This document shows positions 1,215 through 2,900 of a DNA stretch of 33,341 bases, piece by piece. Source of the DNA: an uncultured delta proteobacterium. GTDB lineage: Bacteria > Myxococcota_A > Polyangia > Haliangiales > Haliangiaceae. Where the stretch lies: assembly GCA_900696455.1 (NCBI GenBank), contig CAADGB010000479.1, positions 1 to 33,341 on the forward strand, in the 5' to 3' direction. Position numbers and translations under genes: made by a program. The notes beneath the pieces were generated by a model. It saw only the letters and a list, made by a program, of their open reading frames with translations. It was not told where the DNA came from and searched no databases. Within the stretch, counting starts at the first letter, position 1; every line of letters begins with the position of its first letter.

Positions 1215-1781
1215 CGACAAGGCCCTCAGCGCCTTCCGGGGTTGCTCCGCCCGGCCGCTCCCCCCGGCCGCCCCCCCCCTCCGGGGTTGCTCCGCCCCGC
1301 TCCGGCCCTACCGGCCCCTTCTACCCTTCCGGCCCCCTTCCGGGGTTGCTCCACCCGGTTGCTCCACCCGGTTGCTCCACCCCGGGGTTGCTCCGCCCCC
1401 GCTCCCCTCGGCGTCGCCCCGGCCCCCTTCCGGGGTTGCTCCGCCCGCTTCCCTCGGCGCCGCCCGGCCCCTCCCGGGTTGCTCCGCCCGGCCGCTTCCC
1501 CTCGGCGCGGACCGGCGGGGTCGCTCCGCCCCGGCTCCGCCCCGCTCCGCCCGCTCCATCCCCTTCCAGGGTTGGCCCGGACCGCCCCGGGCCGCCGCCC
1601 CCTCGCCCCCGGGGCCCCATCAGGGTGGAGATCCGATGGAACCCGGCCGGATTTCGGACGCGTCCGGAATCCGGCCGGGGACCCGGCCGGATTCCGGACG
1701 CGTAGCGTCGCAACGACTGCAGATCACACGCGCCGACGACCGGCACGCGCTGTGCTTCATCCGCGGCGCGAGCGTGAAGCC
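1215..1781. repeat. Gene-free stretch holding degenerate ~13-bp repeats
   Basis: No convincing gene lies here. Eight exact copies of GGTTGCTCC(G/A)CCC start at 1240, 1285, 1344, 1357, 1370, 1386, 1434 and 1477, and a ninth with one change starts at 1519. The copies at 1344-1382 are directly tandem with 13-bp spacing; the others are 16-48 bp apart and embedded in C-rich filler, including a run of nine C at 1272-1280. The spacing is irregular, so this is not a CRISPR array. The frames open through this tract give only Arg/Pro/Gly-rich products with no recognisable fold and look like composition artefacts. The last 140 bp hold a separate palindromic element, listed on its own. Confidence 0.75.
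1641..1705. repeat. REP/BIME-like palindrome plus a third half-copy upstream of the RAYT transposase
   Basis: Positions 1642-1660 and 1661-1679 form a 38-bp inverted repeat whose 19-nt arms match at 18 of 19 positions and are centred on ACG|CGT. A third copy of the left arm follows as a direct repeat at 1681-1700, again with one difference (C for T at the fourth position of ATTTCGG). The third copy runs into CGTAG at 1701-1705. The cluster ends 77 bp before the transposase start. Known RAYT enzymes act on REP palindromes that are often paired as BIMEs and carry a GTAG or GGAG foot. The proximity makes these the likely substrate sites, but that link is inference. Confidence 0.6.
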
Positions 1782-2678
1782 ATGACACTCCCCCGACAGG
1801 TCATTCCGGGCTCCTTCTACAAGATCACGCGTCGTTGCACGCAACGGCAGTGCTTGCTCCACCCGAACCCGGTCACGAACGAGATCTTCCTCTACTGCCT
1901 GGCAGAGGCCGCTCAGCGTTTCGACATCGAGGTCATGCTCCCTACTGCCCTCTCCAACCACCATCACACCGACATCTTCGACCGGTACGGCAACGTCATC
2001 CCGTTCGTCGAGCACTTCCATAGGCTGCTCGCGAAGTCCATGAACGCCTATCTCGGACGTTCCGAGAACTTCTGGTCGAGCGAGCAGGTCTCTATCGTTC
2101 GGATCGAGGACCCCGCCGACGTGATCGACAAGCTCGTCTACACCGCGCTCAACCCGGTCGCCGCCGACCTCGTCGAGCGCGTCGCCGACTGGCCCGGGGT
2201 CTCGGGGCTCGAGGACCTGCTCGCCCAGCGCACCATCACCGTCAAGCGTCCGAGCTGCTTCTTCAGCGCCAGCGGCTCCATGCCGGAGACCGTGACGCTG
2301 AGCCTCGTGATCCCGCCGGAGCTCGGCGATAGCGACGCGGTCCGGCGAGAGCTGAGGGAACGCGTCGCTGCCGGTGAGCAACGGCTGGCCGCGGAGCGGA
2401 CGCAGGCGGGCAGACGCGTGCTCGGGCGTCGTGGCATCCTGAAGCGTTCGTGGCGCGACTTCCCGGCAACCGAAGCGCCACGCCGAGGACTGCGGCCTCG
2501 CTTCGCCGCGCGCTCGCGCGCCGTCCTGGAGGCCGCGCTCCAGCGGTACCACGAGTTCCTCTGCGCCTACCGACAGGCGCGCCGAGCGTGGCTGGAAGGC
2601 GAAGCTCCGCATTTCCCGGCGGGGACGTACTGGCTCCAGCGCTTCGCGGGGGTCACCGTGGCGCCCCTCGTACAATGA
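1782..2678 (+). CDS. REP-associated tyrosine (Y1/HUH) transposase, IS200-like
   Basis: The 298-residue product has the landmarks of the Y1 transposase family. A His triplet (SNHHHTD, H60-H62) supplies the HUH metal site, and Y120 in VYTALNPVAADL fits the Y-x3-NP motif that holds the catalytic tyrosine. It is followed by the usual ERxxDWPG segment. Such enzymes nick one DNA strand and join it covalently to tyrosine. RAYTs are single-copy domesticated relatives that spread REP palindromes, and a palindrome cluster sits just upstream. The protein is longer than IS200 TnpA (about 150 aa) and has an extra C-terminal basic helical region from about residue 185. ATG 1782 is chosen because the conserved part starts right after it (PGSFYKITRR); the longer open frame upstream is repeat sequence. 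Its codons use A/T at third positions more often than the neighbours do, consistent with acquisition by transfer. Confidence 0.85.
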   Translation: MTLPRQVIPGSFYKITRRCTQRQCLLHPNPVTNEIFLYCLAEAAQRFDIEVMLPTALSNHHHTDIFDRYGNVIPFVEHFHRLLAKSMNAYLGRSENFWSSEQVSIVRIEDPADVIDKLVYTALNPVAADLVERVADWPGVSGLEDLLAQRTITVKRPSCFFSASGSMPETVTLSLVIPPELGDSDAVRRELRERVAAGEQRLAAERTQAGRRVLGRRGILKRSWRDFPATEAPRRGLRPRFAARSRAVLEAALQRYHEFLCAYRQARRAWLEGEAPHFPAGTYWLQRFAGVTVAPLVQ

Positions 2679-2701: not shown

Positions 2702-2720
2702 CGCGGCCCGTCAGGCCGCG
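2702..2720 (+). terminator. Hairpin after the transposase gene, possible terminator
   Basis: A perfect 7-bp G+C stem (2702-2708 with 2714-2720) with a 5-nt loop begins 24 bp after the stop codon. No T-run follows, so it may be a factor-dependent terminator or only a stable hairpin. The remaining gap to the TetR gene (2721-2900) shows nothing else recognisable. Confidence 0.3.
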
Positions 2721-2900
2721 CCGTCGCGGCGTGGTGCGGAGCGCGCGAGAACCGCGCGCCCGCGTGGCTGCAGCGGCACCGCCGACCAGGCTTCGCCCGG
2801 TGGCCATCGAAACAACCCCGGTGGGGCGCTGGGAGGGCGTCGGAACTCCGGACCCGCTGCGACGTTGGCGGGCGCTGGACCGCGCCGACGTTGCGCCGGT

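Follow-up and report, generated by a model that had tools for sequence, protein, structure and literature searches.

The palindromes in front of a transposase gene in the window (the whole stretch of 33,341 nucleotides analysed here) look like an on-switch common to the transposase and to host genes for DNA uptake and recombination. We consider it probable, at roughly seven in ten, that the gene belongs to a RAYT/TIRYT-like single-strand transposon which carries a captured sigma54 competence enhancer/promoter of its host, and that an activator, most likely an FHA protein, switches the transposase together with recombination and competence genes. The same dyad module with a sigma54 match precedes transposase and host genes, it recurs across genomes, and in a sister genome it is copied as part of a mobile unit. 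Shared control of the transposase and the host genes is well supported.

The transposase gene and its upstream region

The gene extends on the forward strand from the ATG at 1782 to position 2678 and encodes a RAYT/TIRYT-like HUH single-strand transposase of 298 amino acids (P0001), consisting of a Y1 core and a C-terminal extension. Its identification as RAYT-like in the initial annotation is supported by a significant match to the NCBIfam model NF047646 (E 9.4e-8; 32 bits, with the curated cut-off of 80 not reached), by the match of all 25 aligned homologues to the same model, and by the best solved relative, TnpA-REP 4er8 (E 0.002). In the 10 genomes searched, none of the matches to NF047646 exceeded the curated cut-off, and the Pfam model Y1_Tnp gave no match for the window transposase. 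The HUH motif and the catalytic tyrosine with NP(V) are present as N59-H60-x-H62 and Y120-x3-NP, and all 25 aligned homologues retain N59, H60, H62 and Y120. The NF047646 family core corresponds to residues 5-138 and thus leaves a C-terminal extension of about 160 residues, instead of the approximately 110 given before. Single-sequence structure prediction yielded no usable fold (mean pLDDT 35.8). The gene uses more A/T at third codon positions than its neighbours, as had been observed, to a modest extent (GC at third positions of 0.85 versus 0.94 and 0.91 in the two neighbouring genes). We class the enzyme as a divergent RAYT that comes closest to what has been described as TIRYT.

Upstream of this gene, a 38-bp palindrome reported earlier is indeed present at 1642-1679, with two arms of 19 nt (1642-1660 and 1661-1679) which are complementary at 18 of 19 positions. 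What had been regarded as a third half-copy, at 1682-1703, repeats 1658-1679 in inverted orientation without a mismatch over 22 nt, so the count is three dyads and not a palindrome plus a half. A search for arms of 19 nt with at most one mismatch and a gap of at most 2 returned three matches in the window and none in each of 20 dinucleotide shuffles. Since the gene starts at the ATG at 1782, the repeats lie 78-140 bp upstream of it, a slight correction of the former 77-141 bp, and no copies were found 3′ of the gene. The three dyads (1642-1703, forward strand; approximately 1645-1659, 1662-1676 and 1685-1699) are CCGG-cored and are proposed as an enhancer (UAS) for a sigma54 activator; the same module stands before recA, yifB, radC, the comEA operon and the activator gene.

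Shortly upstream of the ATG, the sequence CCGGCACGCGCTGTGCT (1740-1756, forward strand) matches the sigma54 -24/-12 consensus at 11 of 13 positions, with GG at 1742-1743 and GC at 1754-1755; the shuffle rate for a score of at least 11 is 0.35%. The window locus thereby combines GG-N10-GC in consensus context with dyads upstream, the arrangement of a sigma54 promoter with UAS. Judged by their bases, such predicted promoters would be served by sigma54 in vivo.

Among 32 upstream regions of transposase genes from the host's family, 22 contain a sigma54 score of at least 10 within 80 bp (2.1% in shuffles) and 10 do not, 25 contain enriched half-sites (p <=0.02), and 20 contain both; half-sites amount to 4.8 versus 1.0 expected. 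Outside the host's family, two of eight homologues have a sigma54 score of at least 10, none has enriched half-sites, and none has both. All four transposase copies of the host genome are preceded by both half-sites and a sigma54 match, including one (C331) that is 29% identical to P0001. Neither dyads nor a sigma54 match were found at another Y1 transposase of the host genome (C389), and both the sigma54 match and the half-site enrichment are missing at two copies in the sister genome G006 (L071, L072).

The module at host genes

A dyad model comprising three dyads was derived from eight clusters of the host genome, with the promoter part left out, and was searched in seven genomes of the genus including the host. 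The host genome of 7.98 Mb harbors about 16 dyad clusters at E<1e-3, nearly all of them at promoters. The genes that follow are recA, yifB/comM, radC, a small gene with comEA, and the gene for an FHA-type sigma54 activator, as well as several nuclease-like genes and all four transposase copies. Downstream of dyads, the domains RecA, YifB, RadC, ComEA and FHA-sigma54 activator with HTH were confirmed; a VWA protein, several nuclease-like or mobile genes and a secreted protease-like gene (a label of our own, with no Pfam match) are located there as well. In the host genome, comEA, yifB, radC and recA have the common module, whereas dprA, which was checked as a regulon member, does not. This set of genes resembles competence regulons known elsewhere.

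Although promoters were outside the dyad model, a sigma54-type GG-N10-GC site follows between the dyads and the start codon. In 50 of the 61 dyad-cluster loci of the seven genomes the sigma54 score is at least 10 of 13, and in 40 at least 11, compared to 7.0% and 3.3% of 5000 window pairs drawn at random from these 61 loci, a control that includes some true promoters; 11 loci lack a score of 10. Seven paralogous HNH-like genes in G003 (L126, L131, L135, L140, L144, L147, L153), the scanned one of which has a weak IscB/HNH match, all carry dyads and a sigma54 match. The same promoter module was found before three paralogous genes of the host genome (G000: L088, L090, L098), labelled Rpn-like by motif, the scanned one without a nuclease family match, and before genes of Rpn-like type in G001 and of Uma2-like type (likewise labelled by motif) in G002.

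The small gene before comEA was found once each in 25 of 32 relatives, and of these 25 comEA-operon promoters, 21 show a sigma54 score of at least 10 and 14 show enriched half-sites. This promoter type extends across order and class and includes genomes without detectable RAYT. In G007, G008 and G036, where no match to P0001 or NF047646 was obtained, the half-sites before comEA number 3, 4 and 6 (0.65, 0.24 and 0.69 expected); the comEA promoter of G008 has no strict sigma54 match and that of G007 scores 9. In a comparison across 11 genomes, dyads of the transposase match those of the comEA operon in the same genome better than those in other genomes (p 0.011), which is a weak test of co-evolution. 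The small single-copy protein encoded before comEA (L159:2584-2853, G000:C19) has no Pfam or NCBIfam match, and many of its orthologues have a C-terminal DLPF/IPF/LPF tail that resembles the SSB tip; it is possibly a new competence protein.

The protein encoded at L158:3007-4380 (G000:C121) combines FHA, sigma54-activator (GAFTGA) and HTH parts, and its own promoter has dyads. Dense dyads are located upstream of its orthologues in 10 of 14 host-family genomes (one of the 14 with only 48 bp upstream), in none of five outside the host's family, and in 1 of 11 paralogue controls. We consider this protein a candidate master regulator and, from its domains and its promoter, the probable activator.

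With recA, radC and nuclease-like genes among its members, the regulon might serve DNA damage or other recombination instead of competence, and the transposase would then answer to damage, much as irradiation triggers transposition of a resident Deinococcus insertion sequence according to the extract of PMC2806898. ComEA and YifB/ComM argue against this alternative, and lexA, uvr and dinB were not recognised among the host-genome dyad loci read; we regard it as unlikely.

Copies and ends of the element

In a search of 95 genomes, transposase homologues were detected in 63, with up to 25 matches in the sister genome G006. The G006 copies have in common the DNA from the first dyad, which lies 118 bp before the gene, to a CCCCCGG motif about 180-185 bp downstream of the gene, and they differ in the flanks on either side; most copies are about 96% identical and one (L067) about 89%. 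Near-identical copies which comprise one unit from the dyads to the right end indicate joint movement of this whole stretch, in contrast to typical REPtrons. As the host genome contains only four transposase copies, the evidence for this mobile unit comes from the sister genome and not from the host. Some copy pairs in G006 have further left flank in common, and incomplete 3′ and 5′ portions of the element (L065, L066) adjoin full copies, as if insertions cluster.

In the window, a right-end hairpin, GCGCCGTCGCGGCGTGG, is located at 2718-2734 (forward strand). Its core 15-mer recurs with at most two mismatches at 21 of 38 homologous loci, all 21 among the 30 loci of the host's family and none among the eight outside. 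The right terminal motif CAACCCCGGT (2813-2822, forward strand) corresponds to the right boundary of the unit repeated in G006 and is a terminal motif in relatives. Five exact inverted copies of its core CCGGGGTTG form an array at 1236-1438 (forward strand), and similar arrays flank relatives. This core is present in 10 exact copies in the window versus 0.38 expected, and genome-wide in 210 versus 90 in the control (2.3 times), partly in arrays. A second array, at G000:C106:23418-23591, likewise repeats CCGGGGTTG, the right terminal motif of the transposon in inverted form.

Relatives outside the host's family end close to the gene at an ACCnnGGTTGA-like motif without dyads, and have an inverted copy of this motif downstream (ACCnnGGTTGA...TCAACCnnGGT), often in tandem arrays. 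With regard to terminal inverted repeats, the left copies in the window lie in the array further out, and in G006 a left copy was not seen. Because these outside relatives end without dyads, the promoter module is apparently an internal addition to the element, made within the host's family. The reverse direction, with the dyads as left-end hairpins of the transposon itself and host genes supplied with the module by inserted left ends, would fit the four different left flanks in G006 that break exactly at the first dyad; the ends of the outside relatives and the presence of the comEA-operon module across order and class, also where a RAYT match is absent, render it quite improbable.

Dyad sites of such size fit many regulators, and they could belong to a repressor or a factor unrelated to sigma54; we rate this very low in view of their rather constant position before the -24/-12 site and their occurrence before a sigma54 activator gene.

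The initial annotation had taken the palindrome for a BIME-like element mobilised by the enzyme and had suggested a genome search for the 19-nt arm. With up to three mismatches the arm was found at 56 places versus 9 for a reversed-pattern control, which rules out that it is limited to the window locus. Of these places, 20 belong to dyad clusters in the promoter regions of host and transposase genes; among the loci inspected with context, most isolated matches fall within reading frames of high GC3, and dyads grouped in twos or threes stand directly upstream of genes. The recurrence was therefore confirmed, but the clusters sit at promoters, and abundant dispersed REP copies outside genes were not found in the host genome. 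Solo right ends were also considered as REP-like repeats and rejected: in the host genome GCGCCGTCGCGGCGTGG occurs exactly at two transposase copies only, and with one mismatch at 16 further places versus 6 for the reversed pattern. What repeats with the transposase gene is a promoter module and not a REP. That REP/BIME elements were mobilised by the window RAYT and scattered as non-autonomous repeats, as the symmetry of the palindromes, their vicinity to a RAYT-like gene and the arm count above control might suggest, is scarcely credible and was rejected, since the clusters are few, stand nearly all at promoters with sigma54 sites following, are absent 3′ of the gene, occur at comEA promoters of G007, G008 and G036, genomes that gave no RAYT-family match, and are not enriched at homologous transposases outside the host's family.

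Proposed mechanism and known systems

In the preferred explanation, a single-strand (HUH/Y1) transposon of the RAYT/TIRYT kind would have the sigma54 recombination/competence control region of its host duplicated ahead of the transposase gene, with a -24/-12 promoter and, as sites for an activator, two or three CCGG-cored dyads. This activator, most likely the FHA-AAA+-HTH protein encoded at G000:C121 (the module also stands before its own gene), would bind the dyads and switch on recA, yifB/comM, radC, comEA and the transposase together. Such co-switching would time the transposase to conditions in which single-stranded DNA, its natural substrate, is plentiful. The shared promoter suggests that the transposase may be induced during natural transformation/competence, and transposition may take place on incoming DNA. 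We see even odds for a broader proposal, namely that several unrelated mobile or nuclease families in this Myxococcota group (two RAYT lineages, HNH-like, and Rpn-like and Uma2-like PD-(D/E)XK) each captured the host sigma54 competence enhancer/promoter; single-strand transposition and nuclease activity would then be triggered by natural transformation itself. A single-strand transposase under the switch that imports ssDNA would be a clean case of an element reading host physiology, and a candidate sigma54/FHA-activator competence regulon in Myxococcota would be exposed. Titles and abstract openings of the papers listed in our literature searches contained no description of such a regulon in Myxococcota and none tying RAYT to competence control, nor did these papers show a RAYT or another mobile or nuclease gene that had taken over a sigma54 control region of its host.

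The enzyme shares with RAYT/TnpA-REP (REPtron) the HUH and Y-x3-NP residues, the single-strand transposase core and the NF047646 match, but differs by its long C-terminal extension and the lack of an abundant REP family. RAYT genes are flanked by two inverted REPs according to the extract of PMC2817692, whereas here palindromes are found upstream only. Furthermore, REPtrons do not appear to transpose as a unit (extract of PMC6006769), while relatives of the window enzyme form many near-identical whole copies in one genome (G006). With TIRYT/TIRtron, as described in the extract of PMC3733652, the element seems to have in common a RAYT-like gene together with an inverted motif at the ends that also occurs in clusters; however, the published common motif GGGGWSAS does not fit ACCGGGGTTGA. 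The same extract calls it unknown whether REPs drive RAYT expression and does not mention a sigma54 or competence promoter, whereas the window element has a sigma54 match. In Streptococcus pneumoniae, the late ComX genes likewise include radC with competence genes, and the late competence set co-regulates genes annotated as recombination-promoting nuclease or transposase (extract of PMC6560143). Control there is exerted by ComX, in contrast to the sigma54-type promoters with dyad activator sites, the Myxococcota-like genome and the single-strand transposase described here.
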